Assembly (NCBI RefSeq): GCF_004116725.1
Contig: NZ_PDKG01000003.1
Location: 124,001-188,000, forward strand
Length of the DNA stretch: 64,000 nt
Direction of reading: 5' to 3'
DNA from: Arcobacter sp. CECT 8986
GTDB lineage: Bacteria > Campylobacterota > Campylobacteria > Campylobacterales > Arcobacteraceae
Notes under the pieces: generated by a model
The model's input: only the letters and a program-made list of their open reading frames with translations
What the model was told of the DNA's origin: nothing
The model's database searches: none
Position numbers and translations under genes: made by a program
In this document: positions 2,701-17,272 of the stretch, piece by piece
Layout of the letters: each line of letters starts with the position of its first letter
Position numbering within the stretch: position 1 is the first letter of the stretch

Positions 2701-2709
2701 ATAATCTTA

Positions 2710-2736: not shown

Positions 2737-2776
2737 AATAATTCTGCTAATATTTTATTGTTTTATCATTATTTTA

Positions 2777-2791
2777 TAATAATGATTATCA
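2777..2791. promoter_or_regulatory. Fur box upstream of the porin gene
   Basis: TAATAATGATTATCA matches the 7-1-7 Fur consensus at 13 of 14 arm positions. The identical 15-mer recurs at 4140-4154 before the DUF2325 operon. It lies 83 bases before the porin ATG. Confidence 0.75.
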
Positions 2792-2874
2792 ATATAAGGT
2801 AAATTTAATAATTTTTTAATTATTATTCTTTTGCGCGAATTTTATTCTCCTAAAACACACAAGGAAACACACAC

Positions 2875-4014
2875 ATGAAAAAGAATATTAGCATTATTGC
2901 TAGTTTAGCAATATTTAGCGTAACATCTGTTTTTGCAGAATCTAACTCAATAGATGAAGCATTCAAAAATGGTAAAGTAAGTGGTGATATCTCTGTTCAC
3001 TACGAAACTTGGGATAATGGAAGTAATGAAGATTATGGATTTTCAACTCCTTCTATTGGTTTAAAGTTTGAAACTGATTCTTTTAAAGGATTTAGTGCTG
3101 GTGTTGCATTTAGAGGAAATACAGAAACTTCTGAAGAAAACAATGGTGATTATGAAGATACAATGGCAGAAGATGGTGATGTAACAGAAGCATATATCCA
3201 ATATGAAAATGATATATTTGCCATAAAAGCTGGTAGACAAGAAATGGATTTAGAGTGGCTTGGTGATTACAATGATGGTGTAATTGCAGTATTAAAAGCT
3301 ATTCCATATACTACATTAACTGCTGGATATACAAATAGACAAGCTGAAATCACTTTAGATACACATGATAAATTTCACAGGTTTGAAAATAAAAAAGGTG
3401 ATGACTCAGCAGGATTTGTAATTGATGGTAAAATTGAACCTACAAAAGGTTTAGTATTTAATCCATATTTTTATACAGCTGATGACATTGCAGATTATTA
3501 TGGTCTTAAAACAACTTTTGATAATGATTTATTTGGGTTAACTGCACATTATGCACAAACAAATGAAGATAATCCAAGTGATTCAAATGATGAAGATGGA
3601 AGTATTTTAAATCTAGAAGCAAGACTTAATGTTTCTGATTTTAATTTTATGTTAGGTTATATTAAAACTGATAGTGATGGAGGAATTGGTTCTTTAGATT
3701 CACTTGGGGATAATATAGATCAAACAGAAGAGTTAACAGATGCAGTTTATGGTATTGATGCAAAATCATACTATCTTGGCGCTGCTTATACTTTTAAAGA
3801 TTTAGAAATTTCTGCACTTTATACAAATAGTAAACATGAAGTTTCAACAAAAGATGTAAAAGATAAAGAGTTAACTCTTGCCGCTTCTTACAATATTACA
3901 GAGCAATTAACAGCAGAACTTATTTATACAGATGCAAATATTGATAAAAATTCTGATTTAAATGATGGAGAAGATTTTAATAAATTTGTAGCAAACATAT
4001 CTTATAGTTTCTAA
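2875..4014 (+). CDS. Outer-membrane beta-barrel porin (Opr/major outer membrane protein type)
   Basis: A 379-residue exported protein. A Sec signal peptide spans about residues 1-21 (MKKNISIIASLAIFSVTSVFA), with cleavage after VFA. The mature part is rich in alternating aromatic/acidic strands typical of a 16-18-strand barrel and ends in the Phe required by the Bam machinery (ANISYSF). It resembles the Opr-family porins common in Arcobacter-type genomes. Substrate specificity cannot be read. Because a Fur box lies upstream and the gene has its own terminator, it is probably a monocistronic, iron-responsive porin; whether it carries an iron ligand or is a general porin is open. Confidence 0.85.
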   Translation: MKKNISIIASLAIFSVTSVFAESNSIDEAFKNGKVSGDISVHYETWDNGSNEDYGFSTPSIGLKFETDSFKGFSAGVAFRGNTETSEENNGDYEDTMAEDGDVTEAYIQYENDIFAIKAGRQEMDLEWLGDYNDGVIAVLKAIPYTTLTAGYTNRQAEITLDTHDKFHRFENKKGDDSAGFVIDGKIEPTKGLVFNPYFYTADDIADYYGLKTTFDNDLFGLTAHYAQTNEDNPSDSNDEDGSILNLEARLNVSDFNFMLGYIKTDSDGGIGSLDSLGDNIDQTEELTDAVYGIDAKSYYLGAAYTFKDLEISALYTNSKHEVSTKDVKDKELTLAASYNITEQLTAELIYTDANIDKNSDLNDGEDFNKFVANISYSF

Positions 4015-4044
4015 AACTATACTCTTTCAAATATATAGGTAAAA

Positions 4045-4073
4045 GGTTAGTGATAAAACACTAGCCTTTTTTT
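4045..4073 (+). terminator. Rho-independent terminator of the porin gene
   Basis: GGTTAGTG (4045-4052) pairs with CACTAGCC (4059-4066), with one G-U pair and a six-base loop, followed by seven T residues. It lies 31 bases beyond the porin stop codon and is a textbook intrinsic terminator. Confidence 0.9.
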
Positions 4074-4086
4074 ATTTCAACATTTT

Positions 4087-4101
4087 TGATAATAACTATC
4101 A
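4087..4101. promoter_or_regulatory. Fur box (distal) of the DUF2325-flavodoxin operon
   Basis: TGATAATAACTATCA matches the 7-1-7 consensus at 13 of 14 arm positions. It lies 53 bases upstream of a second box (4140-4154), a spacing that could allow cooperative Fur binding over the promoter. Confidence 0.75.
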
Positions 4102-4139
4102 ATATTAAACTACAATTAAGATTACTTCCTGTATTATTT

Positions 4140-4154
4140 TAATAATGATTATCA
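4140..4154. promoter_or_regulatory. Fur box (proximal) of the DUF2325-flavodoxin operon
   Basis: TAATAATGATTATCA matches the Fur consensus at 13 of 14 arm positions and is identical to the porin box. A possible -10 (TATTAT, 4132-4137) abuts it, so Fur would occlude the promoter. The first reading frame downstream is the 21-residue peptide at 4170. Confidence 0.8.
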
Positions 4155-4169
4155 TTTAAAGGATGAGAC

Positions 4170-4235
4170 ATGAATTCACACTTTGATTTAAAAAAGAAAA
4201 ATGAACTTGTAAAACCAACCGGTTGTACTTGTTAA
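4170..4235 (+). CDS. 21-residue Lys-rich peptide ending in GCTC, first gene of a Fur-box operon
   Basis: A very short frame with good gene signals: AAAGGA six bases before the ATG, a stop 17 bases before the next gene, and two Fur boxes upstream. The product has a basic middle (DLKKKNELVK) and a C-terminal KPTGCTC with two cysteines at the tail. No family was recognised. The Cys-X-Cys end could bind a metal or be a modification or processing site, or the frame could act as a leader controlling the operon; all of this is inference. Conservation in relatives would decide whether it is translated. Confidence 0.55.
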   Translation: MNSHFDLKKKNELVKPTGCTC

Positions 4236-4252
4236 AATAAGAAGGGAAAACT

Positions 4253-4579
4253 ATGAGTGTATTAATTATTGGTGGAGATAAAATTTCACAAATTTCAAGT
4301 ATGTTAGAGAACTTAGGTGCAAAAACAATAAATCATTGGGATGCTAGAAAAAAATCTTCTGCTCCAAAAAAGAAGATACCTCAAGATACAGATTGTATTA
4401 TTATGCTAACTTCATTTTTAAATCACAACACAATGTTGAAATACAAAAGTGAAGCAAAGAAAAAGGAAATCCCTTTTATTTGTGCAAAAAGAAGTGTAAA
4501 TTGTGTTTATGATGAATATATGAAAATTATGGGTATAAAAGATTGTAGTGAATGTTATGCAAATTGTGGGTGCAAATAA
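4253..4579 (+). CDS. DUF2325 domain protein with C-terminal Cys cluster
   Basis: A 108-residue protein. DUF2325 proteins have a Rossmann-like start (here SVLIIGGDKI) and a later conserved CAKRS-type segment. This one ends in CSECYANCGCK, giving four cysteines in the last eleven residues, a likely metal or Fe-S site. GAAGGG precedes the ATG. It is the second gene of the Fur-box operon with a flavodoxin downstream, suggesting a role in iron starvation or metal handling. The molecular function of DUF2325 is not established. Confidence 0.8.
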   Translation: MSVLIIGGDKISQISSMLENLGAKTINHWDARKKSSAPKKKIPQDTDCIIMLTSFLNHNTMLKYKSEAKKKEIPFICAKRSVNCVYDEYMKIMGIKDCSECYANCGCK

Positions 4580-5337
4580 TGAAGATTGATATAAAAAATG
4601 ATTTTTTAGGATTTATTGGTAATACTGAATTTTTACCAAAAGATTTTGATCAATTCACTTCAACAAAAAGATTAAGACAACTATTTTTAGTTTTAAGTAA
4701 TAACATCTTAAAAGATGCATGTACTTTTTCAAAATATGAACAAAGAAAACTATCAAATTATAGTTTAGAAAAAGCATTTACGCACAAGATTAATATGATG
4801 TTACCGAACTCATTTGTATTTATACATAAAAAAAGTTCTTCATTTAATTTTTGTAAAGATTCTACTTTAATAATAAATGCTTTTAAAAATAGAAAAAATC
4901 TTTTTATAAGTACTGCAAATAAAAAGCTATTAAATGTAGCAAGATTAATATCTTATTGTTATACAAACAATCAAATGCAAATTTTACTTGATAAAGATTT
5001 GTTATTCCATGAGTTTGTGTATCAAAAAGTTAAAAGACTTCATAAAAATAAAGAAGTTAAAGATTTGGGAAATGCAATATCTATAAAAGGAAAAGATGTA
5101 GATGCTTTAAAAATATATACATCTTGGAAAGATATAAAAACAAATCAACCAAATATAAAAGAAGAAGTAGAATATGCAATAAAAAGTATAAAAAACGAAA
5201 ATTATGCTCAAGTATATTTGGTTTATCCAAAAGCAAATGATTTTAAAAGACACATACCAGTTTATGTGGATGAATTAAAAAACGAAAACTATGTGATAAA
5301 GGCGATTCCTTATTCACTTAGATCAACAATTAGATAA
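4579..5337 (+). CDS. Uncharacterised basic protein between DUF2325 and flavodoxin
   Basis: A 252-residue soluble, Lys-rich protein. The frame is open further upstream, but the ATG at 4579 overlaps the stop of the DUF2325 gene (TAATG) and is the natural coupled start. No domain was recognised, and there is no signal peptide or membrane segment. Visible features are several phenylalanine-rich hydrophobic patches in the first 150 residues and a C-terminal segment with YLVYPKANDFKRHIPVYV. Its operon (Fur boxes, Cys peptide, DUF2325, flavodoxin) implies a part in iron starvation or in flavodoxin-dependent electron transfer, which is inference only. Confidence 0.7.
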   Translation: MKIDIKNDFLGFIGNTEFLPKDFDQFTSTKRLRQLFLVLSNNILKDACTFSKYEQRKLSNYSLEKAFTHKINMMLPNSFVFIHKKSSSFNFCKDSTLIINAFKNRKNLFISTANKKLLNVARLISYCYTNNQMQILLDKDLLFHEFVYQKVKRLHKNKEVKDLGNAISIKGKDVDALKIYTSWKDIKTNQPNIKEEVEYAIKSIKNENYAQVYLVYPKANDFKRHIPVYVDELKNENYVIKAIPYSLRSTIR

Positions 5338-5351
5338 GGAGATTTTTTTAA

Positions 5352-5849
5352 ATGGCGACAGCACTATTTTATGCAAGTAGCACTGGAAATACTGAAGAAG
5401 TAGCACAAAAAATTGCAGATAGATTACAAGGAATTGATACTTTCAATATAAGTGATAAAAGTATAGAAAATATAAACAATTATGAAAAGTTAATAATCGG
5501 TACTCCAACTTGGGGTGAAGGTGATTTACAAGATGACTGGGATGAAAAGTGGGATGAGTTTTGTTCACTTGATTTAAGTACAAAAACAATTGCACTTTTT
5601 GGTTTAGGTGACCAAGATAGCTATGGTGATGAGTTTTGTGATGCATTGGGAATAATGTATGAACAAATAGAAAAAGCTGGTGCAAATATAGTTGGTTTTA
5701 CATCAACTGATGGATATGAGCACGAGTATTCAAAAGCACAAATAGATGACAAATTTGTTGGATTAGTTATTGATGAAGATAATCAAGATGATTTAACAGA
5801 TGAAAGAATCGAAAACTGGACAAATCAAATAAAAAATGACATCTTATAA
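5352..5849 (+). CDS. fldA: Flavodoxin (first of three tandem copies)
   Basis: A 165-residue long-chain flavodoxin, an FMN electron carrier that can replace ferredoxin under iron limitation. The phosphate-binding loop is SSTGNTE (about residues 9-15). The FMN-ring loops are TPTWGEGDLQDDW (about 55-67) and GLGDQDSYGDEFCDA. It is the last gene of the Fur-box operon, 14 bases after the previous stop, and is followed by a terminator. In Campylobacterota flavodoxin also serves pyruvate:acceptor oxidoreductase. The start follows AAGGAG with a rather long 10-base spacing. Confidence 0.95.
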   Translation: MATALFYASSTGNTEEVAQKIADRLQGIDTFNISDKSIENINNYEKLIIGTPTWGEGDLQDDWDEKWDEFCSLDLSTKTIALFGLGDQDSYGDEFCDALGIMYEQIEKAGANIVGFTSTDGYEHEYSKAQIDDKFVGLVIDEDNQDDLTDERIENWTNQIKNDIL

Positions 5850-5871
5850 ATAAGCCAATTTTGGCTTATTT
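5848..5871 (+). terminator. Terminator after first flavodoxin
   Basis: AAATAAGCCAA (5848-5858) and TTGGCTTATTT (5861-5871) form an 11-pair stem beginning at the stop codon. The U-run is only TTT, so efficiency is uncertain, but the position fits the operon end. Confidence 0.65.
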
Positions 5872-5971
5872 AATTCTGCAATAAACTTCTACACTTTAAC
5901 TGAATAATTTATACTAATCTTAAATTTTTTTATCATAATATATAATAATTATAAATTTATAAGGAGCTAAC

Positions 5972-6481
5972 ATGACTACGGCAATATTTTATACAAGTCA
6001 ATGTAATCACGCAAAAGGTGTTGCAGAAAAAATTTCAAAAGCATTTGATGAGATTCGCATATTTGATATTGCAGTTACAGGTAGCGAATATATAAATGAT
6101 TTTAAACATATTATATTTGGTGTATCAACTTCAAATCATGGAGAAATGCAAAAAGATTGGCAGAAAATTTGGGATGATTTTAAAGATATCAATTTCAAAG
6201 GTAAAACTGTTGCAATTTTTGGTTTGGGTGACCAAACTAATTATCCAGATGAATTTGCAGATGCAATGAAATATGTTTATGATGACTTGCTAAAAAGTGG
6301 TGCAAATATAATTGGCTTTACATCAACTGATTCATATAACTTCAACTCATCAAAAGCAGTTATTGAAGATAAATTTGTTGGTTTAGTTATAGATGAAGTT
6401 AATCAATCACACCTTACAGATAAAAGAATTCAAGAGTGGGCAGACAAAATTAAAGAGGATTTACAACACGAGTCTTCTTAA
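5972..6481 (+). CDS. Divergent flavodoxin-like protein lacking the FMN phosphate loop
   Basis: A 169-residue flavodoxin paralogue with the same length and core as its neighbours (IFGLGDQTNYPDEFADA, DKFVGLVIDE near the end). The SSTGNTE phosphate loop is replaced by SQCNHAKG, and the TWGEGDLQDDW loop by TSNHGEMQKDW. The residues that hold FMN phosphate and cap the ring are therefore lost, although the fold appears intact and the frame is open. It may bind another cofactor or partner, or be a non-redox decoy. AAGGAG gives a good ribosome-binding site. A weak Fur-like sequence lies at 5940-5954 (11 of 14). Confidence 0.85.
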   Translation: MTTAIFYTSQCNHAKGVAEKISKAFDEIRIFDIAVTGSEYINDFKHIIFGVSTSNHGEMQKDWQKIWDDFKDINFKGKTVAIFGLGDQTNYPDEFADAMKYVYDDLLKSGANIIGFTSTDSYNFNSSKAVIEDKFVGLVIDEVNQSHLTDKRIQEWADKIKEDLQHESS

Positions 6482-6570
6482 TTTTTTATTAACAAAAAAC
6501 CGACTTTTTTTAAATAAGACATATTTTATCCTATTTCATTAAAATTACAAAAAAATATAAAGGATAATCT

Positions 6571-7074
6571 ATGGCAACTGCTATATTTTACGCAAGTAGT
6601 ACAGGAAATACAGAAGAAGTAGCAACTAAAATTGCAGAAAAACTTGATATTACTACACTTTTTAATATAAGTAACAATCAAAAAGATATAAATAAAATTT
6701 CTGAATATGACAAACTAATCTTAGCTACATCAACTTGGGGTGATGGAGATTTACAAGATGATTGGGATGAAATTTGGGAAGATTTCAAACAAATTGATTT
6801 TTCTGATAAAACAGTTGCACTAGTTGCACTTGGAGATCAAGATGGATATGATGATACATTTGTAAATTCACTTGGAACAATGTATGAACAAGTAGTTGAA
6901 CAAGGTGCAAATGTAATTGGATTTACTTCTACTGATGGTTATGATTTTGAAGAATCAACTGCTGTAAAAGATGATAAATTTGTTGGATTAGTTATTGATG
7001 AAGATAATCAAGATGATTTAACTGATGAAAGAATTGATAACTGGACAGATGAAATTAGAAGTGAAATTATTTAA
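6571..7074 (+). CDS. Flavodoxin (third tandem copy)
   Basis: A 167-residue canonical long-chain flavodoxin with the FMN phosphate loop SSTGNTE (about residues 9-15), the ring loops TSTWGDGDLQDDW and ALGDQDGYDDTF, and the same C-terminal VIDEDNQDDLTDERI as the first copy. Close similarity to the first copy suggests duplication, with the degenerate middle copy arising from the same event or an older one. It has its own 89-base upstream gap, so separate transcription is possible. It ends at a bidirectional terminator facing fur. Confidence 0.93.
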   Translation: MATAIFYASSTGNTEEVATKIAEKLDITTLFNISNNQKDINKISEYDKLILATSTWGDGDLQDDWDEIWEDFKQIDFSDKTVALVALGDQDGYDDTFVNSLGTMYEQVVEQGANVIGFTSTDGYDFEESTAVKDDKFVGLVIDEDNQDDLTDERIDNWTDEIRSEII

Positions 7075-7100
7075 ATATTAAGGATTATTCCTTAATATTT
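7073..7100. terminator. Bidirectional terminator between flavodoxin and fur
   Basis: AAATATTAAGG (7073-7083) and CCTTAATATTT (7090-7100) are exact reverse complements with a six-base loop. The element overlaps the stop codons of both convergent genes, so it probably ends both transcripts. Confidence 0.75.
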
Positions 7101-7542
7101 ATTTACTTTGACAATCTGTGCAAATTCCATATAATTGCATTGAGTGACTTGTAATTTTAAATTTATTTTTCTTTGCTATTTTATCTTGTCTTTTTTCTAT
7201 CTCATCATCTAAAAATTCTACTATTTTTCCACAAGATGTGCAAATTAAATGATCATGGTGAGATTTTGCATTACTTTCGTATTTTTTACCTTCTGTTCCA
7301 AAAGCAATAGATGCTATAAGGTCAACTTCTTCTAAAAAACCAAGAGCTCTATATACCGTAGCAATACCGATATTTGAATCAGGATATTTTTCTTTGATTT
7401 GATTATAAACTTCTTCTGCACTTAAGTGATCTTCTGCGTTTATAAGAATATCTAGAACAATTTCTCTTTGTTCTGTGTATTTCAAACCTTTTTGTTTTAC
7501 GATTTTTTTAAGTTCTTCTATTACTTCTTCATTATTTGCCAT
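7099..7542 (-). CDS. fur: Ferric uptake regulator Fur
   Basis: A 147-residue iron-responsive repressor. The winged helix lies in residues about 1-85, with recognition helix GIATVYRAL. The metal/dimer domain holds KSHHDHLICTSCGKIVEF, a distal QLYGICTDC that gives the second CXXC zinc pair, and the regulatory His/Glu residues. It matches Campylobacter Fur more closely than PerR, notably KYTEQRE and IAFGTEGKKYE. It is convergent with the third flavodoxin and is the most likely ligand of the Fur boxes nearby. A second paralogue is at 16617-17063. Confidence 0.93.
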   Translation of the reverse strand: MANNEEVIEELKKIVKQKGLKYTEQREIVLDILINAEDHLSAEEVYNQIKEKYPDSNIGIATVYRALGFLEEVDLIASIAFGTEGKKYESNAKSHHDHLICTSCGKIVEFLDDEIEKRQDKIAKKNKFKITSHSMQLYGICTDCQSK

Positions 7543-7569
7543 TAAAACACGCCCTTAAAATTTATAAAT

Positions 7570-7575
7570 ATTATA
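7570..7575 (-). promoter_or_regulatory. Candidate -10 box for fur
   Basis: TATAAT on the minus strand, 28 bases upstream of the fur ATG. No consensus -35 is visible at the right spacing, as is common in this phylum. No Fur box was seen here. Confidence 0.4.
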
Positions 7576-7625
7576 GTATATCTAAAGTTAGCAAAAAATT
7601 CAACTATTATTTTTATAAGTTTTTT

Positions 7626-7835
7626 TTATTTTTCTTTTAGTTTTTTTCTCTTCTTGTCAGGTTGATAAAGCATATGATGCCACAACGCAAAACCACAGAA
7701 TGCAGCACCTGCAATTATATGAGTTCTTTTAGCAAATTTATTTTTCATAAACATAGAAGTTACTACCGTAGCTCCCAAAGTTGCAGTCATTCCAACTTTT
7801 GCAACTTCTTTTTTTACTTCTGCATCAACTTTCAT
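7626..7835 (-). CDS. Small two-helix membrane protein downstream of the ferrosome-like block
   Basis: A 69-residue protein with two hydrophobic segments (about 11-30, VAKVGMTATLGATVVTSMFM, and 38-54, HIIAGAAFCGFALWHHMLY) and a Lys/Arg-rich tail. The WHHMLYQP motif at the end of helix 2 could bind heme or metal. The frame is open to a TTG at 7865, but ATG 7835 with AAGGA upstream is preferred. It overlaps the preceding small gene by 11 bases, so they are coupled. Fur boxes lie upstream of the pair. Context suggests an accessory of the iron compartment, but the function is unproven. Confidence 0.65.
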   Translation of the reverse strand: MKVDAEVKKEVAKVGMTATLGATVVTSMFMKNKFAKRTHIIAGAAFCGFALWHHMLYQPDKKRKKLKEK

Positions 7836-7944
7836 TCCTTTTCTTCCTTCTTTGTCTTCTTTCAATAGTTTTTTTTGTACCTTTTAATGTTTCATAAGTT
7901 AAAGCTACTGTTAACGCTGTTGCTAATGGTAAAAGAAATGGCAT
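7825..7944 (-). CDS. 39-residue single-helix membrane peptide behind Fur boxes
   Basis: A short frame with an excellent ribosome-binding site (AAGGAG, 8 bases before the ATG). It has a hydrophobic N-terminal helix (MPFLLPLATALTVALTYETL) and a strongly basic tail (KKTIERRQRRKKRNES). It overlaps the next membrane-protein gene by 11 bases. Two Fur-type boxes (7959-7973 and 8005-8019) lie directly upstream, so the pair is likely iron-repressed. It lies just downstream of the P-type ATPase gene on the same strand. No family was recognised. Confidence 0.65.
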   Translation of the reverse strand: MPFLLPLATALTVALTYETLKGTKKTIERRQRRKKRNES

Positions 7945-7958
7945 ATAAATACTCCTTA

Positions 7959-7973
7959 TGATAATGTATATCA
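7959..7973. promoter_or_regulatory. Fur-like box (proximal) before the small membrane gene pair
   Basis: TGATAATGTATATCA has one perfect half-site and 5 of 7 in the other. It lies 14 bases before the ATG of the 39-residue peptide, close to its ribosome-binding site. Confidence 0.55.
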
Positions 7974-8004
7974 ATATTATAACTATTGATAGTTTAAAGT
8001 AAAC

Positions 8005-8019
8005 TGATAATAATTATCA
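8005..8019. promoter_or_regulatory. Fur box (perfect 7-1-7) after the P-type ATPase gene
   Basis: TGATAATAATTATCA, identical to the box at 2436-2450. It lies between the ATPase stop (8036) and the small membrane gene pair. These two genes can therefore be transcribed separately under Fur even if they also belong to the longer transcript. Confidence 0.85.
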
Positions 8020-8035
8020 TAATAAGAATTATAAG

Positions 8036-10144
8036 CTATTTTTTTACACCTCTTATTGAATTTAAAAGTAAACCAATTGTTGTACCATTGTGTAGTACTG
8101 CTGTAACAATAGGAGAAAATGCTCCCAGTGTTGCTCCACCTAAAATTGCTGAATTTATTCCAACTGTTGCTTTAAAATTAGTGTTTATCAAATTCATTGT
8201 TTTATTTGATAACTCTTTTGCTTGAACAACGGCATCAATATCATCTTTTAGTAAACTTACATCTGCTGTTGCTTTTGCTATATCTGCACCTTTACTCATA
8301 GAAATTCCCACATTTGCAGAGATTAATGCTGGTGCATCATTTATTCCATCTCCTACAAAAGCAACATTTCTTCCTTCATCAATCATTTTTTTAACAATTG
8401 ATGCTTTATCAGTTGGTAATAACTCAGAATAAACCTCATCAACACCTAACTCTTTGGCTACCATTTGTGCTTTTTTCTCAACATCACCTGTTAACATTAC
8501 AATATGATTTACACCCAATTGTCTTAATTTTTCAATTGATTCTTTTGAATTACTTCTAATTTGATCAGCTAAAGCTATTGTTCCTAATAATTTACCATTA
8601 AAACCTATATATAATAGAGTCTTACCTTCATCTAAACTTTTATTTATTCTATCTTTATGTTTAGAGAAATCAATTTGTTCATCATCTTCTAAGAAATGTC
8701 TACTTCCAATTACTACAAGTTTACCTTCAACTTCTGTTTTTACACCATGAGCTACAATAAATTCAACTTCTTCATGGTGCATATGCACAAAACCTCTTTG
8801 TTTTGCAGCTTTTACAACAGCTTCTGCAACTGGATGAAAATAGTGTTCTTCTGTACTTGCTGTAAGATTTAATAACTCTTCTTCTGTCCACTCTTCATCA
8901 TAAGATGCAACTTCGATTACTTCTAAATCACCTTTTGTCAAAGTTCCAGTTTTATCAAAAATAAATGTATCTACATTTGATAAAGCTTCAATTGATTTAG
9001 CACCTTTAATCATTATTCCATCATGACCAGCTTTTGAAATTGTTGATTTAAAAGCAACTGGTGTTGCTAATTTTAAAGCACAAGAGTAATCTGCTTGTAA
9101 AATAGAAGCAACTCTTTCAAAATCTTTAGTAAACAAATATGAAATACCAGCTAAACCTAAAGTAACAGGAACTAACTTATCAGCTAATCTTGTTGCTTTT
9201 AATTGCACTGATGATTTTTCATTTAATGAGCTTTCAATATAGTGTTTTATTCTTTGTGTTGCTGTATTTGCTCCAACATGCTCTGCCCAGATTTTTAATC
9301 TCCCCTCTTCCAAAACAGTTCCAGAGATAACTCTATCTCCTCTTTGTTTTTTTATAGGTTCTGCTTCACCCGTCATAGATACTTGATTTACGCTTGCATC
9401 ACCATGTACAATATGCCCATCAACTGGTATTGTACTACCTGCTGCAACAACAACTATATCTCCAACTTCAATATTTTCAGTCTCTACTAATACTTCAACT
9501 TTTTTACCATTTTCGTCTGTTTTTTCTACCCATGCTTCTTTTACATTTGGTTTTGATAACTCTTTTAGTAAATCATCACTTTTATGTACAGTAGTCTCTT
9601 CTATGTATTCACCTAACTCTAACATTGCATTTGTTGAGTTTGCAGCTAAATAATCTCTTCTATAAACAGAAATACCAACAGCAGCACTTTCTAATACTTT
9701 TGAAGTTAATCCCTCAGTAAATAGCTCTTTTGTACCTTCCATTAACATAGGAATAGCAGCAGTTGTTGTTATTGTCGCTTTTGCAAGGTTATTGTTTATA
9801 AATCTTTCAGCAATCAAAGCACCACTTGCTCTTGCTACACCAGATAAACTTGGTTTTTCACTACTTACACAATTTACACAAACTGCATTATCTACACAAT
9901 CTGTTGATAATAAATCATCTAGTGTAAGTTTTCTTAAAACATCTTCGATATTCTCTTTAATATCTTCAACAATATTAAAAACAACACTATATGCTTTTTT
10001 ATTTATACGTACACTACTAACTCCATCAATATTTTCTAAATAGGATTTCAAGATATTTTCATCTATAAAATCCTCTTTTAAAAGCAGATATTTATATCTT
10101 AATCTTGAAGGAGTTTCATGAACTATTTTAAAATTTTTATTCAT
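8036..10144 (-). CDS. fezB: P1B-type ATPase with SCALKLATP motif, FezB (ferrosome) type
   Basis: A 702-residue metal-translocating ATPase. In order: N-terminal TPSRLR (11-16); a Cys cluster C83/C89/C92; actuator TGEAEP (258-263); membrane motif SCALKLATP (354-362) where Cu/Zn pumps have CPC; phosphorylation site DKTGT (397-401); HP (437-438); and hinge GDGINDAP (598-605). The SCA variant and the Arg-rich N-terminal motif fit the P1B-6 group, whose FezB members make ferrosomes (lipid-bounded iron granules) in Desulfovibrio, Shewanella and Rhodopseudomonas. It is the last of six tightly packed genes that include a ferritin-like protein. The iron role and the symbol are inferred from motif and context; ordinary iron or heavy-metal efflux is the alternative. 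Confidence 0.75.
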   Translation of the reverse strand: MNKNFKIVHETPSRLRYKYLLLKEDFIDENILKSYLENIDGVSSVRINKKAYSVVFNIVEDIKENIEDVLRKLTLDDLLSTDCVDNAVCVNCVSSEKPSLSGVARASGALIAERFINNNLAKATITTTAAIPMLMEGTKELFTEGLTSKVLESAAVGISVYRRDYLAANSTNAMLELGEYIEETTVHKSDDLLKELSKPNVKEAWVEKTDENGKKVEVLVETENIEVGDIVVVAAGSTIPVDGHIVHGDASVNQVSMTGEAEPIKKQRGDRVISGTVLEEGRLKIWAEHVGANTATQRIKHYIESSLNEKSSVQLKATRLADKLVPVTLGLAGISYLFTKDFERVASILQADYSCALKLATPVAFKSTISKAGHDGIMIKGAKSIEALSNVDTFIFDKTGTLTKGDLEVIEVASYDEEWTEEELLNLTASTEEHYFHPVAEAVVKAAKQRGFVHMHHEEVEFIVAHGVKTEVEGKLVVIGSRHFLEDDEQIDFSKHKDRINKSLDEGKTLLYIGFNGKLLGTIALADQIRSNSKESIEKLRQLGVNHIVMLTGDVEKKAQMVAKELGVDEVYSELLPTDKASIVKKMIDEGRNVAFVGDGINDAPALISANVGISMSKGADIAKATADVSLLKDDIDAVVQAKELSNKTMNLINTNFKATVGINSAILGGATLGAFSPIVTAVLHNGTTIGLLLNSIRGVKK

Positions 10145-10156
10145 AAAATATCTTTT

Positions 10157-10507
10157 TTATTCTTGATTTGATTCCATTGCAGCTTTAGCATCTTCCATTC
10201 TCTCTTTCATCTCTTCCATTCCAGCTTGAAAAAGTTGAGTTCCTTTTGATACTGCTTTCATTATATTTTCTTGTGCACCTTTATTTGTAAGAAAATAAGT
10301 AACTGCTGCACCAATTAATGCTCCTTTTACAAAATCACCTGTACTAAAACTATTTTGTGCTTGAGTTTGTTGTACTGGATTATTATTTATATTAGCAGGT
10401 TGATTGATATAAGGATTTTGATTTAAATTAACATCTTGTTGTTGTGCTGCTCTTGTATTCTCAATATTCATATCATACATATTTTGATTGTTGTTTTGAT
10501 TCATCAT
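10157..10507 (-). CDS. Asn/Gln-rich small membrane-associated protein, YtxH-like
   Basis: A 116-residue protein in two parts. Residues about 1-55 are extremely Asn/Gln-rich and disordered. Residues about 58-116 have a glycine-bearing hydrophobic segment (FVKGALIGAAVTYFLTNKG) and then an amphipathic helix (AGMEEMKERMEDAKAAM), as in YtxH-like proteins. It lies 12 bases before the ATPase gene and 2 bases after the previous gene. Small hydrophobic coiled-coil proteins of this kind accompany FezB in ferrosome operons, where they may shape or coat the vesicle. The function is inferred. Confidence 0.7.
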   Translation of the reverse strand: MMNQNNNQNMYDMNIENTRAAQQQDVNLNQNPYINQPANINNNPVQQTQAQNSFSTGDFVKGALIGAAVTYFLTNKGAQENIMKAVSKGTQLFQAGMEEMKERMEDAKAAMESNQE

Positions 10508-10509
10508 TT

Positions 10510-10875
10510 TTAGTTATCCTCTTGAATTAAAATATCTTCATTTTGTTCTTCTATCTCTTCATACTTTGTATCAAGTTTTTCATCTATTACCTCAACTGCG
10601 TAAATACCAGCCATACCAACACTTAATGCTGTTAAAGCTTTAAGCCAACCACCTTGACCAATATGATTTGCTGTTGCGATTGCAGTTCCAGTTGCGATTG
10701 CACCTTGAGCTGTTTTTTTAACAGTATCTTTTACTGCATCTTTAGAAGATATTTTTGCATCTTTTGCTTTTTTATAGTTTATTGTTCCTGATACAACTGC
10801 ACTTGCAACTGCACCACTTACAATATGTCCTACTACGTTTCTTGGTTCACCAGTATTAATTATTCTGCTTTGCAT
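10510..10875 (-). CDS. Small glycine-rich membrane protein of the ferrosome-like operon
   Basis: A 121-residue protein with two Ala/Gly-rich hydrophobic segments, about 15-34 (GHIVSGAVASAVVSGTINY) and about 75-97 (GWLKALTALSVGMAGIYAVE), and an acidic tail. The small-residue pattern recalls membrane-packing proteins of magnetosome and ferrosome compartments, though no firm family could be assigned. The gene overlaps its upstream neighbour by 16 bases. AAGGAT supplies a ribosome-binding site inside that neighbour. Confidence 0.7.
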   Translation of the reverse strand: MQSRIINTGEPRNVVGHIVSGAVASAVVSGTINYKKAKDAKISSKDAVKDTVKKTAQGAIATGTAIATANHIGQGGWLKALTALSVGMAGIYAVEVIDEKLDTKYEEIEEQNEDILIQEDN

Positions 10876-11147
10876 TCTTCTTCATCCTTTTTTTCTATTT
10901 GCTCAACTACTTTTTCTTTTTCTTGTAATTTTCTTGCTTCTTTTTTCTCTTTGATACACTCTTTTGTAGCTTCAACTGTATCTTTTACATCTGCAACTAC
11001 TTCTTTACCTTGCTCTACTTTTGAACATGCAAAATCTTTAGATTTTCCAAAAACCTCTTTTGCTTTATCTTTTACTGAAGAACTATTTTTTAATGCATAA
11101 ACTACTCCTGCTCCAACTGCAAGACCTGCTATAAATGGTAATGCCAT
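10860..11147 (-). CDS. YtxH-like single-helix coiled-coil protein of the ferrosome-like operon
   Basis: A 95-residue protein. An N-terminal hydrophobic, glycine-rich helix (about 4-20, PFIAGLAVGAGVVYALK) is followed by a long charged coiled coil to the end, with Cys near residue 40 and in the last residues. The plan of a hydrophobic N terminus plus coiled coil fits YtxH-like proteins and is the layout described for small ferrosome-associated proteins. AAGGAG lies six bases before the ATG, three bases after the ferritin-like gene. Confidence 0.7.
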   Translation of the reverse strand: MALPFIAGLAVGAGVVYALKNSSSVKDKAKEVFGKSKDFACSKVEQGKEVVADVKDTVEATKECIKEKKEARKLQEKEKVVEQIEKKDEEECKAE

Positions 11148-11150
11148 AAT

Positions 11151-11825
11151 TTACTCCTTGTTTGTTTGTGTATAACTATTTAAAAAAGCAACTAATGCTG
11201 CACCAAACCCAGCTCCACTAATCATAGAGATATTTAATTTACTTAAAAGCTCAGTAATTTTATTTTGGTCCATATTCCCTGAAGCAATATCTTCTAAAAG
11301 CATTTGATATTCATTTGCTTTATTCATCATATCTTCAACACTATTTAGACTTGTTGATTCATTTACACCATTATAGTGATTTAAAACACACTTTCTAAAT
11401 GCTGGAAGGTGATTATTGTAAGATGCTGCTTGCAATTTAAATAAAATATCTTTAATATCTGGTTGCTTTGTATTTGCAATCAAATCATCATACATTGCGA
11501 TATTATTTATCTCATTTGCAACACCAAGCTCACAACACTCAATATATGTATTTGGAACTTCTATTTTATCTGCCCAATCATTTATAGGAACTTCTACATT
11601 ATACTTTTGTAATAAAGGCATCAATGCACTATAATGTACAGCTTCTGCTTCTTTTATATTTACAAAAGGATAAATTGCACCAAACTTCTCTATAATTTTT
11701 GTATATGACTCATATGCTTTAAACTCATCATATACAGCAATTCTTAATACTTGTGATTCAATAGCTTGGTCACTATTTAAATCAACTCTTTGAGAAAGAA
11801 GTATATTTTCATCAAGATTAGCCAC
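11151..11825 (-). CDS. Ferritin-like (DUF2202-type) diiron protein with hydrophobic C-terminal tail
   Basis: A 224-residue protein. Residues about 20-155 match the DUF2202 ferritin-like four-helix bundle: E34 in DEFKAYESY, E61 and H64 in EAEAVHY, E105 in ANEINN, then MYDDL and H139 in NNHLPAF, which are plausible diiron ligands. Residues 203-216 (SGAGFGAALVAFLN) form a glycine-rich hydrophobic tail that could anchor it to membrane. The start is GTG (11825), with a near-perfect GGAGGTGAT upstream; it overlaps the preceding stop (TAGTG). A ferritin-like protein tied to a FezB-type ATPase points to iron oxidation or storage on a membrane compartment. DUF2202 activity is not well defined. Confidence 0.78.
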   Translation of the reverse strand: MANLDENILLSQRVDLNSDQAIESQVLRIAVYDEFKAYESYTKIIEKFGAIYPFVNIKEAEAVHYSALMPLLQKYNVEVPINDWADKIEVPNTYIECCELGVANEINNIAMYDDLIANTKQPDIKDILFKLQAASYNNHLPAFRKCVLNHYNGVNESTSLNSVEDMMNKANEYQMLLEDIASGNMDQNKITELLSKLNISMISGAGFGAALVAFLNSYTQTNKE

Positions 11826-12139
11826 TACATCACCTCCTTCGCTAGATTATTTATTATTTGAGTTATCTCTTCTAAATTCTGCTTATTTATTAAATCTTCC
11901 CAAACTTGAGGTTTGAAAATATTTGCATCATAAGTAATAGTTACTGAAGCAATTATTTTATTTATTTTTATACTTTTTATTCCATTAATTTTTTTTGGTA
12001 AGTTTTCTATATCTTCTATTGATATATTTTCACTCTCTTTTTTAATTTTTGGATTTACTCTAACTCTCAATCTTCCAGGAGTATGAGCAATAATTGTAAA
12101 GTAACCTGCTATATTTATTATATCTTCTGTTTTTATCAA
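11825..12139 (-). CDS. Small HMA-like protein with HTPGRLRVR motif, FezC-like
   Basis: A 104-residue soluble protein. Residues 19-27 read HTPGRLRVR, the motif that opens HMA_2-type domains and that recurs in degenerate form at the N terminus of the ATPase (HETPSRLR). The rest has the beta-alpha-beta pattern of heavy-metal-associated domains (IKSIKINKIIASVTITYD) but no CXXC. Small HMA-like proteins accompany FezB in ferrosome operons. The start is TTG with AAAGGA six bases upstream; no in-frame ATG lies near. It is the first gene of the six. A weak Fur-like site (11 of 14) lies at 12200-12214. Confidence 0.7.
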   Translation of the reverse strand: MIKTEDIINIAGYFTIIAHTPGRLRVRVNPKIKKESENISIEDIENLPKKINGIKSIKINKIIASVTITYDANIFKPQVWEDLINKQNLEEITQIINNLAKEVM

Positions 12140-12207
12140 AAATAATCCTTTAATATGATAGTTTTACTAAATAAAATTTAAGCTTACCTTAATATAGATT
12201 TAAACTC

Positions 12208-12236
12208 ATTATCAAAAAGGCTATCTTTTTGATAAT
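12208..12236 (-). terminator. Hairpin terminator after the diguanylate cyclase gene
   Basis: ATTATCAAAAAG (12208-12219) and CTTTTTGATAAT (12225-12236) form a perfect 12-pair stem with a five-base loop, starting four bases after the cyclase stop. It separates that gene from the ferrosome-like operon on the same strand. There is no long U-tract beyond the stem. Confidence 0.65.
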
Positions 12237-12239
12237 ATG

Positions 12240-14075
12240 TCATATTAGACAAACTCTATTTCTTCCCTCTTTTTTAGCTTGATATAAAGCCTCATCTACT
12301 CTTTTATATACATCTTCAAAACTCTCATCTTTTTTACAAAAAGTAACACCTAAACTAATAGTAATATTAATATGAAGCTCTTCATAATTAAAAGTACTGC
12401 TCATAATTTTCTTTCTAATTCTGTTGGCAATATTTTCAATATTATTATCACTTCTATCATCTAGTAAAATAATAAACTCTTCTCCACCAAATCTTCCTAA
12501 AATATCATCTTTATGAAGACTTGATTTTATAACTTTTGTTAAATCTTTTAAAATACAATCACCAATATAATGTCCATATGTATCATTTATATTTTTAAAA
12601 TAATCTATATCAAAAATAATCAAACAAAAATCTTGCATTTGTAACCAATACTTTAAAATTGAAGTAATTGCACTTTTATTATATGCAGTTGTTAACTCAT
12701 CTGTCATCGCTTTTTGTTCTAGAGTATAAATCTTTTCATTATATTTTGATACATCATTCATACAAATAAGATACTTTTTCATATCTATTTTTCTAACATC
12801 AAAGATAAAATATCTATCGCTATTCTCTATTTTTAGTTTTACTGGATTTTCATAGGATTCATATTTTTTAGCAAAATTAATTAAACTTGATTGAATAGAA
12901 TCATCAATTAAAGCAATATTTGTCAAAAAATGCTCTTTTGTTTTAAATAAATCTATAAACTTTTTATTTGCACTTTCAATATCTTTTCCATCAGTAATTA
13001 GAATAATATCTTTTTGTGTATCAAGAACTGATTGTAAAAAATCTCTCTCTTTTTTAAGTTTTTCATGTTGTTTTGTATTTATAGATTTAAGCATTTCATC
13101 TATTTTTTTACCTAAAAATGTTAACTCATCATTGTACTTTAACTCTATTTCTAATTGTAAAGTATTTAAATTTGATACATTATTTATATGATTTATAAGT
13201 GTAGTTATCCTTTTTGAAAATATTTTATTTATAAAAAGATATATTACAACAATAACTAATATAAAAGTGAAAATAAGTATATAAAAAATAGTACTATTAT
13301 TATCATTTATCTGAATAAAATAATCTCTATTTATCTTCATACTTATAAAAAAATCACTATTATTTATCTCATCTTTAAATTTTATATGTGTAAATATCTC
13401 ACTTTCATTTACTCTATTTATATCATATATATAATTTTGTGATTCTATTTTTACTCTTTTTTTATCTTCTAATAATTTATAAGTTGGAATATAAGAGATA
13501 TAATTATGTGAAATTTTACTTAGACTTGATAAAAAAGAGGAATCAAGTGTTCTTCCTATAAATATATAACCTACTATTTTATTGTCTTTTTTTATCTGTT
13601 TTATTGTAAATAAAACTTTTTCATAATCTAAAGTAATAAGATTTACTCTATTTGTTTTATTTATATACATATTAATATTGTTATTTTTTATAAAATCATT
13701 TAATTTTGAAGGAGCAGATATAAACTCATCTGAACTTATATCATAAACATTTCCATATAAAAAATTTTTGTTTTTATCAAATAGTATAAAATGTGAATAT
13801 CTATCTTTTATGAAATCTTTTTTATAAGATTTGATTTTGTTTGAAACAATTAGATTTATTAGTTTATCATTTGTTGAGTACTCATAAGCAATCTCATTTA
13901 GAAAATCCACTTTTGTATAAAGTGCATCGAAGAAAATTTTTATACTTTTATTTACTTGAGTATTTTCAAACTCTATTGTCTTTTTATTACTCTTTTCTAA
14001 AACAAAAAAAATACAAAAAGAAAGAACCACACAAATTGAGATAAAAAATATTGATATTTTTGTTGATATTTTCAT
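12240..14075 (-). CDS. Membrane-bound diguanylate cyclase (periplasmic sensor-GGDEF)
   Basis: A 611-residue protein that makes cyclic di-GMP. A transmembrane helix lies near 6-25, followed by a periplasmic sensor region of about 230 residues, a second helix near 263-283, a linker with coiled coil and a PAS-like segment, and a GGDEF domain in the last 165 residues. The active-site motif is GRFGGEEF, so it should be catalytic. The usual inhibitory RXXD five residues before it reads HKDD, so product inhibition may be lost. Its start lies 55 bases from three Fur boxes shared with divergent feoA, making iron control possible. Confidence 0.9.
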   Translation of the reverse strand: MKISTKISIFFISICVVLSFCIFFVLEKSNKKTIEFENTQVNKSIKIFFDALYTKVDFLNEIAYEYSTNDKLINLIVSNKIKSYKKDFIKDRYSHFILFDKNKNFLYGNVYDISSDEFISAPSKLNDFIKNNNINMYINKTNRVNLITLDYEKVLFTIKQIKKDNKIVGYIFIGRTLDSSFLSSLSKISHNYISYIPTYKLLEDKKRVKIESQNYIYDINRVNESEIFTHIKFKDEINNSDFFISMKINRDYFIQINDNNSTIFYILIFTFILVIVVIYLFINKIFSKRITTLINHINNVSNLNTLQLEIELKYNDELTFLGKKIDEMLKSINTKQHEKLKKERDFLQSVLDTQKDIILITDGKDIESANKKFIDLFKTKEHFLTNIALIDDSIQSSLINFAKKYESYENPVKLKIENSDRYFIFDVRKIDMKKYLICMNDVSKYNEKIYTLEQKAMTDELTTAYNKSAITSILKYWLQMQDFCLIIFDIDYFKNINDTYGHYIGDCILKDLTKVIKSSLHKDDILGRFGGEEFIILLDDRSDNNIENIANRIRKKIMSSTFNYEELHINITISLGVTFCKKDESFEDVYKRVDEALYQAKKEGRNRVCLI

Positions 14076-14129
14076 TAATCACTCTTTTAAATTTTTGGAA
14101 GTATAATATTATTTTCCTAAATTTATTAT

Positions 14130-14190
14130 TGATAATCATTATTAGTTGTAAATCATTATCAATTTTATAAATATTTGAAAATTATTATCA
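14130..14190. promoter_or_regulatory. Cluster of three Fur boxes between the diguanylate cyclase gene and feoA
   Basis: Three 7-1-7 sites: TGATAATCATTATTA (14130-14144, 13 of 14), TGTAAATCATTATCA (14147-14161, 12 of 14) and TGAAAATTATTATCA (14176-14190, 13 of 14). A candidate feoA -10, TATAAT, follows at 14221-14226. This is the densest Fur-site array in the window and fits iron repression of feoAB, possibly reaching the divergent cyclase gene. Confidence 0.85.
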
Positions 14191-14258
14191 TTATTAAGTA
14201 GTTTTAAATTTTAAGTCTATTATAATTTTAATTATTAAACATTTTTAAAGGATTTTAA

Positions 14259-14480
14259 ATGAAATTAAGTGAGCTTAACAAAGGAGATACAGGGATTATA
14301 TTGTCATTAAACTGCGATAGTTCTTTAAAAAATAGATTTTACTCTTTTGGTATTACAAAAAACACAGAAGTTTATATTGAAGAAGTAACATTAACAAAAA
14401 ATACTATTGAAGTTAAAATAAATAATACAAAAGTTGCCATAAGATTATCAGAAGCTGCAAAGATTGAGGTAAAAAAATGA
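14259..14480 (+). CDS. feoA: Ferrous iron transport protein A
   Basis: A 73-residue SH3-like cytoplasmic partner of FeoB. It has the normal FeoA length and pattern: KGDTGIILSL near the start, then LKNRFYSFGITKNTEVYI and a C-terminal VAIRLSEAAKIEV. Its stop overlaps the feoB start (ATGA). AAAGGATTTTAA precedes the ATG, and three Fur boxes lie upstream. Confidence 0.92.
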   Translation: MKLSELNKGDTGIILSLNCDSSLKNRFYSFGITKNTEVYIEEVTLTKNTIEVKINNTKVAIRLSEAAKIEVKK

Positions 14481-16588
14481 AAAATGAAAAGATTATTAAG
14501 ATTGCATTAGTTGGTCAACCAAATGTTGGTAAGAGTATGCTTATCAACTCTATTTCAAATGCAAGACTTAAAGTAGGTAATTTCTCTGGTGTAACAGTTG
14601 CAAAAGAAGAAGTTATCTTTAAATACAAAGATTATAGAATTGAAATAGTTGACTTACCAGGTTCTTACTCTTTAAATGATTATACATTAGAAGAAAGAGT
14701 AACTAAAGAATTTTTAGAAAATGAAAATTATGATATTATCTTAAATGTATTAGACTCTACAAACTTAGAAAGAAACTTATATTTAACATCTGAATTATTA
14801 GCCTTAGATAAAAAAATGATATTAGCATTAAATATGTCAGATGAAGCAAATAAAGAGAATATTTCTATAAATGCAGAACAATTAAGTAAGATTATTGGAA
14901 AACCTTGCGTAAAAACAAGTGCTGCAAATAAGACAGGAATTGATGATTTAATTCATCAAATTGTAAAAAAATATGAAAATGAAAAACTTCCAACAAAACT
15001 AATTTTTTCTGATGTAATAGAAGAAGAGATTTCAAATATTGTTAAGATTTTCAAAGAATCAAACTACAAAACAGATTCAACGTATAGAGAAATAGCTATT
15101 AAACTTCTAAAAGAAGATAAAAAAACTTATAAATTCTTCCATGATGAACCAATATGGACAAAACTTCAACCAGTTTTAAATGAAGCATTTGAACATATTT
15201 CAATTCACTATGATACAAAAGATATGGAAGATATCTTCAATGATGAAAAATTCTCTTTTTCTAAAGGGATTGTAACTGAAATTGTAACTGAGAAAAAAAA
15301 TAAAAAGAAAACAGTAACTGAAAAAATAGATGCCATACTTATTCATAAGTTTTTTGGTCTTCCAATATTTCTATTTTTAATGTGGGGATTATTCCAATTA
15401 ACTTTTGATATTGGTAATATTCCAATGGATATGATTGATGCATTTTTTGCAAGTTTAATTGATGGTACAAAAGAACTTCTAGGAGATAATCAAATCTCTT
15501 CTATTATTGCAGATGGTGCAATTGCCGGTGTTGGAGCTGTTGTTTTATTTATTCCAAATATTGTGATACTATTTTTTGGAATTGCATTATTAGAAACAAC
15601 AGGTTATATGAGTAGAGTTGCATTTTTACTTGATGGATTTTTTCATAAGTTTGGACTACATGGAAAATCATTTATTCCTTTAGTTACAGGATTTGGATGC
15701 TCAGTTCCTGCATATATGGCAGCAAGAACTTTAAAAAATGAAAGAGATAGACTTCTAACTCTATTTATTATAGGATTTATGTCTTGTGGAGCTAGGTTGC
15801 CTATTTATGTACTATTTACAGGTGCTTTTTTTAGTGAAAAAAATGCAGGAAATATTCTATTTTTAATCTATATTGGTGGTGCACTATTAGGATTAATAGC
15901 TGCAAAAGTATTAAAAGTAGTTGTATTTAAAAGTGAAGATGAGCCTTTTGTAATGGAGATGCCAAAATATAGATTACCTTCAAGTAAATTAATATGGCAT
16001 ACAGTTTCAAATCAAGCTATGATGTATCTTAAAAAAGCTGGTACATTTATTTTAGCAGCATCACTACTTATTTGGGTAGCAAGTAATTATCCTAAACATC
16101 CAGAAGTAGAAGCATCATTTAACCAAAAAATTGAATTAGCACAAACAGATGAAGAAAAAGATGCACTTGCAAATGAGTTATCTTTATATAATCTTGAAAA
16201 CTCATATTTAGGTTATGTTGGTAAATTTTCTGAACCTTTATTTGCTCCTTTAGGATTTGATTGGAGAATGTCAGTTGCTCTTGAAACAGGACTTGCTGCA
16301 AAAGAGATTGTTGTATCAACACTTGGAATTTTATATGGACTTGGAGATGATAATGATGAGAACTCAAAAGGTCTAATAGAAAAAATCAAAAATAATATCT
16401 CAATGCCAGCTGGTATTGCATTTATTGTATTTGTAATGATTTATCTTCCTTGTTTAGCAGCAACAATGGTATTTACAAGAGAAGCAGGTGGATGGAAATA
16501 TTTAGGATATTTATTTGTATTTACAACAGGAACAGCGTGGGTGTTATCATTTATAACATTTAATCTAGTATCAATGTTAGTAGCATAA
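14477..16588 (+). CDS. feoB: Ferrous iron transporter B
   Basis: A 703-residue inner-membrane Fe2+ transporter. The N-terminal G domain holds the P-loop GQPNVGKS (13-20), the switch region GNFSGVTVAKEE and DLPGSYSL (G3). A helical insertion follows, then a membrane domain with the two Gate segments, including FGCSVPAYMAARTLKNERDR and ETGLAAKEIVVSTLG. Length is typical of FeoB. It overlaps feoA by four bases. This is likely the main anaerobic or microaerobic Fe2+ supply that would feed the ferrosome-like compartment. Confidence 0.96.
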   Translation: MKNEKIIKIALVGQPNVGKSMLINSISNARLKVGNFSGVTVAKEEVIFKYKDYRIEIVDLPGSYSLNDYTLEERVTKEFLENENYDIILNVLDSTNLERNLYLTSELLALDKKMILALNMSDEANKENISINAEQLSKIIGKPCVKTSAANKTGIDDLIHQIVKKYENEKLPTKLIFSDVIEEEISNIVKIFKESNYKTDSTYREIAIKLLKEDKKTYKFFHDEPIWTKLQPVLNEAFEHISIHYDTKDMEDIFNDEKFSFSKGIVTEIVTEKKNKKKTVTEKIDAILIHKFFGLPIFLFLMWGLFQLTFDIGNIPMDMIDAFFASLIDGTKELLGDNQISSIIADGAIAGVGAVVLFIPNIVILFFGIALLETTGYMSRVAFLLDGFFHKFGLHGKSFIPLVTGFGCSVPAYMAARTLKNERDRLLTLFIIGFMSCGARLPIYVLFTGAFFSEKNAGNILFLIYIGGALLGLIAAKVLKVVVFKSEDEPFVMEMPKYRLPSSKLIWHTVSNQAMMYLKKAGTFILAASLLIWVASNYPKHPEVEASFNQKIELAQTDEEKDALANELSLYNLENSYLGYVGKFSEPLFAPLGFDWRMSVALETGLAAKEIVVSTLGILYGLGDDNDENSKGLIEKIKNNISMPAGIAFIVFVMIYLPCLAATMVFTREAGGWKYLGYLFVFTTGTAWVLSFITFNLVSMLVA

Positions 16589-16605
16589 GTTAAAACTTAT
16601 GTTAC
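16580..16605. terminator. Hairpin at the convergent feoB / fur-paralogue end
   Basis: GTAGCATAAGT (16580-16590) pairs with ACTTATGTTAC (16595-16605) with one G-U pair and a four-base loop, enclosing the feoB stop codon. It probably terminates feoB and, read from the other side, the fur paralogue. Confidence 0.6.
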
Positions 16606-16616
16606 TAATAAATCTT

Positions 16617-17063
16617 TTATTGGCAATCTTCACATAATCCATAAATAGTCATTATGTGATCACCTAAAATAAAGTTATTATTTTTTGCAACTTCTTTTTG
16701 TTGCTCTTCTATTACATCATCATTAAATTCTATAATTTTACTACAAGATGTACAAATCATATGGTCATGGTGTAAAGATATATTTAACTCATATCTTTTA
16801 GCTCCATCTCCAACATCTAGCGATTTTACTATGTTTAACTCTTCGAAAAATTTAACTGTTCTATATACTGTTGCAATTCCCATATCTATTTTATATTTTT
16901 GTTTTGCAATAGTCACTATATCTTCTGCACTTAAATGCTCATCTGTAAAATATAAAATTTTTAGAATATAATCTTTTTGATTAGAGTTTTTTAGTCCTAA
17001 TTTTGAAACAGTCTTTTTAAAATTATTTAAAAAAGATTCAAAACTCTCTTTATGTTTTTCCAC
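16617..17063 (-). CDS. Second Fur-family regulator
   Basis: A 148-residue Fur paralogue. It has the same recognition helix as the first (MGIATVYRTV), the metal site LHHDHMICTSCSKIIEF and the distal IYGLCEDC zinc pair. The start is taken as GTG at 17063, with AAGGA eight bases before it; the frame is open further upstream, but that part overlaps a better small gene. Shared recognition residues suggest it can see similar boxes. It is convergent with feoB and translationally linked to a 42-residue membrane peptide. Whether it senses iron, peroxide or another metal is not decided by sequence. Confidence 0.9.
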   Translation of the reverse strand: MEKHKESFESFLNNFKKTVSKLGLKNSNQKDYILKILYFTDEHLSAEDIVTIAKQKYKIDMGIATVYRTVKFFEELNIVKSLDVGDGAKRYELNISLHHDHMICTSCSKIIEFNDDVIEEQQKEVAKNNNFILGDHIMTIYGLCEDCQ

Positions 17064-17065
17064 GA

Positions 17066-17194
17066 CTAAAGTCCTTTTAATGCAATTATTAATAATCCTA
17101 AAAGAAAACCGCCTGCATATACTTTCCATAAGAAGCTATGCATTCGTTGATTATGCTTATAAAGAAATCCTTGTTTTGGGCTTAATCTTTTCAT
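17066..17194 (-). CDS. 42-residue membrane peptide coupled to the second fur gene
   Basis: A basic N terminus (MKRLSPKQGFLYKHNQRMH) is followed by one hydrophobic helix (WKVYAGGFLLGLLIIALKGL). AGGA lies seven bases before the ATG. The stop is two bases from the GTG of the Fur paralogue, and the AAGGA that serves that GTG is inside this frame, so translation is coupled. A Fur box (17258-17272) lies upstream. No family was recognised; a role with the regulator or with iron membrane machinery is inference. Confidence 0.65.
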   Translation of the reverse strand: MKRLSPKQGFLYKHNQRMHSFLWKVYAGGFLLGLLIIALKGL

Positions 17195-17257
17195 AGTAGT
17201 CCTATTTTATTTATTTTTAAAATATTACTAAATACAAACTTAATGGTATATTAATGT

Positions 17258-17272
17258 TGATAATAATTATCG
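17258..17272. promoter_or_regulatory. Fur box between the second fur operon and the 138-residue gene
   Basis: TGATAATAATTATCG matches 13 of 14 arm positions. It lies in the divergent gap, 63 bases from the small peptide start on one side and 56 from the 138-residue gene on the other, so it may control both. Confidence 0.8.

Follow-up and report, generated by a model that had tools for sequence, protein, structure and literature searches.

The ferritin-like protein (FLP) encoded within a ferrosome-like operon of Arcobacter sp. CECT 8986 is probably part of a ferrosome-like organelle, anchored there by its tail, with a membrane module as its constant part and a diiron site, intact in this protein, as an optional activity. 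FezB-type iron pumps are thought to fill iron-storage vesicles. The reading is based on the operon linkage of FLP to such a pump, a hydrophobic tail specific to linked proteins, a ligand set that is conserved here and lost elsewhere, and a predicted ferritin-like fold.

The operon and its ferritin-like gene

The DNA analysed, hereafter the window, is a stretch of 64,000 nucleotides from a Malaciobacter-type genome of the Arcobacteraceae, with Arcobacter sp. CECT 8985 and Malaciobacter halophilus as nearest named relatives. FLP is the second of six genes that all lie on the minus strand (Table 1), and a fur-type gene follows beyond FezB, at 7542-7099. The initial annotation had placed the gene in a ferrosome-like operon, which holds; an HMA_2 protein, small membrane-type proteins and a FezB-type pump adjoin it. 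Ferrosome clusters are recognised by a P1B ATPase with an HMA_2-like N terminus, and the pump encoded here has this architecture, its HMA_2 match being weak (6.4e-05) and under its own cut-off. No DUF4405 cytochrome FezC is encoded in the operon; the HMA_2 protein is without DUF4405 and the DUF4405 matches of the genome lie on other contigs. FezC need not occur in every described ferrosome cluster.

Table 1. Features of FLP and of the genes around it, in window coordinates
Feature	Position	Strand	Basis
HMA_2 protein, small, 104 aa, TPGRLRVRV motif, no predicted membrane segment; first operon gene	11825..12139	-	Pfam HMA_2 1.1e-09
FLP, ferritin-like protein, 224 aa, GTG start	11151..11825	-	ORF list, Pfam, fold match to MJ0754 and bacterioferritin
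FLP residues 20-151, predicted ferritin-like four-helix bundle with E34, E61, H64, E105, H139	11373..11768	-	AlphaFold, conservation
FLP residues 158-215, C-terminal module: helix, invariant G183, short helix, hydrophobic segment	11181..11354	-	conservation, module comparison
FLP I199-L215, hydrophobic glycine segment, invariant G204xxxG208	11181..11231	-	conservation, insertion score
s1, small protein, N-terminal glycine-rich hydrophobic segment MALPFIAGLAVGAGVVYAL	10860..11147	-	kept in most operons
s2, small membrane-type protein, distantly MamC-like	10510..10875	-	NCBIfam NF038051 8e-07, 29 bits, cut-off 100
s3, YtxH-like small protein, glycine-rich hydrophobic segment FVKGALIGAAVTYFLTN	10157..10507	-	
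FezB-type P1B ATPase, N-terminal HMA_2-like region (TPSRLRYKY), SCA motif	8036..10144	-	TIGR01525 1.5e-148

The open reading frame and its GTG start were as first annotated, and so was the overlap of that start with the stop codon of the upstream gene: the two share one base in TAGTG (position 11825), and upstream of the GTG stands AAGGAGGTGAT, which matches the anti-Shine-Dalgarno sequence over 11 bases and occurs once in the window. Setting of the stoichiometry by translational coupling, as suggested from this arrangement, is possible but not distinctive, as the operon is tightly packed throughout (spacings downstream of FLP of +3, -16, +2 and +12 bases) and start codon and spacing differ between relatives. 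Assignment to DUF2202 (PF09968) was only just confirmed, at 22.8 bits against a gathering cut-off of 22, and some relatives score under it. A Pfam profile search gave no PF00210 match for FLP at E <= 1, phage records contained no homologue and no Rfam family reached its cut-off within the window.

Several further observations concern the operon. Fur-box-like TNATAATNATTATNA sites number 15 in the window against 4.4 expected and cluster in the iron-gene region 2431-17272; a search for a Fur box immediately upstream of the fez operon gave none. Many relatives have a second P1B-type ATPase gene directly upstream of the HMA_2 gene (L037, L041, L043, L046-L049, L113-L116, L121, L126, L134, L135), which is absent from the window. 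The Arcobacter sp. plasmid CP134847.1 (L078) carries all six operon genes; its fezB is divided between two reading frames, and in its sister plasmid CP129951.1 fezB is full length; judging by these copies, the operon may be able to move between strains.

Linkage to the pump and the C-terminal module

Homologues were searched for with FLP itself as query in Campylobacterota genomes and in plasmid and phage records. Within a sample of 104 Arcobacteraceae genomes a full-length FLP was found in 63, all of which also encode a FezB orthologue, and in no genome without FezB. The orthologue itself occurs in 64 genomes, the sole one without a full-length FLP (G101) having a contig end inside the gene, which bears out the claim that FLP always travels with a FezB-type pump. 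The order HMA_2-FLP-s1-s2-s3-FezB recurs in nearly all loci read, among them those of several families of Campylobacterales, and a few loci are without a recognisable s1.

PF00210 ferritins or Dps proteins, called at E <= 1e-6, are present in 48 of the 63 Arcobacteraceae FLP genomes and were not detected in 15, including that of the window. The ferrosome-like and ferritin storage strategies thus mostly coexist, and are not the alternatives as which they had been presented. The genome of the window (G000) is rated 100% complete and yielded neither a PF00210 ferritin nor Dps; its only PF00210 match turned out to be a rubrerythrin and was rejected as a ferritin.

The C-terminal module of FLP ends in a glycine-rich hydrophobic helix, I199-L215 (ISMISGAGFGAALVAFL), which is by far the most membrane-like stretch of the protein in an insertion-energy scan and in which G204 and G208 are invariant in 58 of 58 aligned Arcobacteraceae-level sequences; the tail noticed in the initial annotation is therefore real. 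Insertion was scored over the last 65 residues of 86 aligned FLP and DUF2202 sequences by means of a reimplemented predictor, with proteins of the window as controls. The apparent insertion energy of the FLP tail is marginally hydrophobic at +1.3, compared with at least +3.5 for soluble controls and -1.3 for FeoB. The C terminus has a single hydrophobic segment of this marginal energy, about 18 residues being the measure for a tail anchor. FLP has no signal peptide, and the AlphaFold pLDDT of the tail is 44-54.

Using +3 as limit, the tail is membrane-like in 63 of 65 fez-linked proteins vs none of the 21 unlinked DUF2202 proteins, so among the proteins examined it is specific to those linked to fez genes, which was the check initially proposed; outside Campylobacterota, tailed DUF2202 proteins in the absence of fez genes may have escaped searches with FLP as query. 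Fisher's test gave 4e-19 for a near-identical split (64/65), a value to be read behind the pattern itself since the relatives are not independent. Of the unlinked proteins, some are about 140 aa long and stop just past helix 4; the others are longer, and most of these carry a signal peptide or lipobox for export. One fez-linked FLP without the tail, L139 (G304), has all six operon genes around it and is the only one to lack both an intact ligand set and the hydrophobic tail. Hydrophobic segments of the same style as the FLP tail occur in s1 and s3.

The module was also found without a ferritin domain. In a fez-like cluster on a plasmid of the alphaproteobacterium Cereibacter, the gene two before s3 (L154:5638-6192) encodes a Pro-rich protein, and the C terminus of this protein aligns with the FLP module, the non-membrane part included, at 22.5 bits (E 1.4e-05 among 3,580 ORFs). 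A mere shared hydrophobic stretch was rejected as explanation: none of 2000 shuffles that left the stretch intact reached 22.5 bits, the best scoring 8.8. The match of a Vibrio protein at the same operon place to the module is not convincing (E 0.74), although this protein resembles the Cereibacter one (1.8e-10). In Azospirillum the cluster consists of HMA_2 proteins, small proteins and FezB, and FLP is absent. The sequence of the one clear example, Cereibacter, suggests that the ferritin domain was joined onto a pre-existing ferrosome-type part.

Conservation and loss of the diiron ligands

An AlphaFold model of FLP, built on a 32-sequence alignment, has the four-helix bundle that defines the ferritin-like superfamily, as do its fold matches. 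The bundle is predicted confidently (block pLDDT 92-98 or higher, >90 over residues 11-150) and the C-terminal part is poorly resolved. The candidate ligands first proposed, E34, E61, H64, E105 and H139, are found at those positions, and each of them has at most one exception among the 58 Arcobacteraceae-level sequences. They form the pattern E, ExxH, E, H that is also seen in unlinked DUF2202 members and correspond to five of the six ferritin-type ligands. Helix 2 has its ExxH; helix 4 reads Y136-N-N-H139, Tyr136 taking the place of the ferritin Glu, so the two ExxH motifs of PF00210 are not both present.

In the 86-sequence alignment the five ligands are intact in all 21 unlinked proteins vs 41 of the 65 fez-linked ones. 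The presumed conservation of the ligands thus stands in the Arcobacteraceae but breaks down in 24 linked relatives, mostly at E61, H64 and H139, and 23 of these keep the tail. Losses are found in a large clade of one family (f3), in a mixed set of another (f2) and as single cases (L042, L118), and mapped on the FezB tree the ligand state must have changed at least 5 times. Typically E34 and E105 are kept, the helix-2 ExxH has become R/K-x-x-A/G and H139 is a Tyr. Most of these bundles are without an ExxH and contain no more than two histidines; a few, such as L131 and L137, have an ExxH elsewhere. Those FLPs among L125-L142 that lost H139 share a new conserved NEY at that place in helix 4; with its Glu at position 138, this may be another metal or contact site.

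One such ligand-less protein (L132) is still modelled as a ferritin-like bundle, with a Z of about 18 to bacterioferritin. Sequence identity in ligand-less FLPs is higher in the C-terminal module (0.37) than in the bundle (0.27), and in ligand-intact FLPs lower in the module (0.40) than in the bundle (0.56). Since the ligand set is lost while tail and operon position persist, ferroxidase chemistry is not the conserved reason for the tail.

Proposed role and comparison with known systems

We propose that the C-terminal module, consisting of a helix, a Gly turn, a short helix and the GxxxG hydrophobic segment, would put FLP on the membrane of the compartment that the operon presumably forms. The bundle would probably face the cytosol, because FLP has no signal peptide, and lie close to the FezB pump. 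For Malaciobacter and other Arcobacteraceae, binding or oxidation of iron, or consumption of O2 or H2O2, is the probable activity of the bundle next to the pump, and FLP may serve there as a local ferroxidase or a scavenger of oxidants; as the operon has no FezC-type gene, it might fill the redox slot. The repeated loss of the site elsewhere with retention of the tail argues for a conserved role that would be membrane-localised and structural or organising, with a redox role as an option; given the lineages without ligands, redox or iron activity cannot be the whole role of FLP.

The initial annotation had viewed FLP as a membrane ferroxidase coupled directly to FezB, in which the diiron site is the point and Fe(II) is oxidised at the membrane for the mineral. 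The near-invariance of the five ligands in Arcobacteraceae fits this view, as do the fold matches to bacterioferritin and to MJ0754, which was solved with Zn2+, but as a general rule it fails on the 24 linked relatives that retain tail and operon with a broken ligand set. The helix-4 Tyr136 also speaks against it, and a ferroxidase facing the cytosol would yield Fe(III), which is not an expected substrate of a P1B pump, so that we consider it unlikely. Somewhat less likely still is that the tail serves as an oligomerisation or mineral-contacting helix, like the fifth helix of ferritin, in an assembly that is soluble or lumenal. Ferritins commonly have additional C-terminal helices, and both the positive insertion energy and the low model confidence of the tail would agree with this; against it stand the restriction of the tail to proteins with fez genes, its invariant GxxxG, the same-style segments of s1 and s3 and the presence of the module on a protein without a bundle. 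Short untailed DUF2202 genes elsewhere adjoin cydAB, peroxiredoxin or Dps genes, and FLP could by analogy be an ordinary peroxide or iron-stress protein that entered the operon by chance with a functionless tail; the invariant operon position across several families and the fez-specific tail make this very improbable.

If FLP is indeed a tail-anchored organelle component, a bacterial iron-storage organelle would have a ferritin-family protein as a built-in part of its membrane, and the repeated loss of the metal site of this protein with the tail kept would amount to a natural experiment on the requirements of such organelles. A tail module that is small and transferable would also give a handle on how proteins reach ferrosomes, a question to which we found no answer in the literature available. 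More tentatively, ferrosome operons could bring different domains to the organelle by a shared C-terminal membrane module, the cargo in Campylobacterota being a ferritin-like domain that was once a diiron enzyme and was repeatedly made into a non-catalytic organelle part.

Among known proteins, the Methanocaldococcus DUF2202 protein MJ0754 (PDB 3q4n, 3q4o and 3q4r) shares the ferritin-like bundle and is the best match of FLP in both sequence (phmmer 1.7e-04) and fold (Foldseek 4.8e-05). The FLP model aligns with it over 131 residues at Z 15.9 and 28% identity, and an E, H and H of MJ0754 align with E61, H64 and H139. The 21 unlinked DUF2202 relatives differ from FLP in having no C-terminal membrane-type module, and a signal peptide or lipobox directs the export of several of them. 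Bacterioferritin and ferritin have a similar fold (Z 15-16.6), and their helices 1 to 4 carry, in turn, the same E, ExxH, E and H as in FLP; unlike FLP, they match PF00210 and have the helix-4 Glu, whereas FLP has the membrane-type tail.

Ferrosome fez clusters, reportedly described by Grant et al. in 2022 and Pi et al. in 2023, share with the FLP operon the FezB-type pump, the HMA_2 protein and small membrane proteins, a likeness seen here at the level of genes. No description of a ferritin-like gene in a fez cluster was found in the literature available, nor any mention of DUF2202 or ferrosomes in Arcobacter; the original ferrosome papers may describe a gene of this kind. In other ferrosomes FezC, a heme cytochrome, is proposed to tune the redox state of iron (PMC11334425), and the FLP operon differs from these in not encoding it. 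Lastly, s2 distantly resembles the model of the magnetosome protein MamC (29-37 bits vs a cut-off of 100). These matches are weak but repeated, being found in the window, an Arcobacter plasmid, two other genomes and a fez-like cluster on a Vibrio plasmid, with E-values between 8e-07 (the window) and 3e-09 (a relative) in most cases and of 2.8e-05 in one. No mam genes were present among the operon proteins scanned; the likeness of s2 to MamC hints that membrane proteins of ferrosomes and magnetosomes may be of common ancestry.
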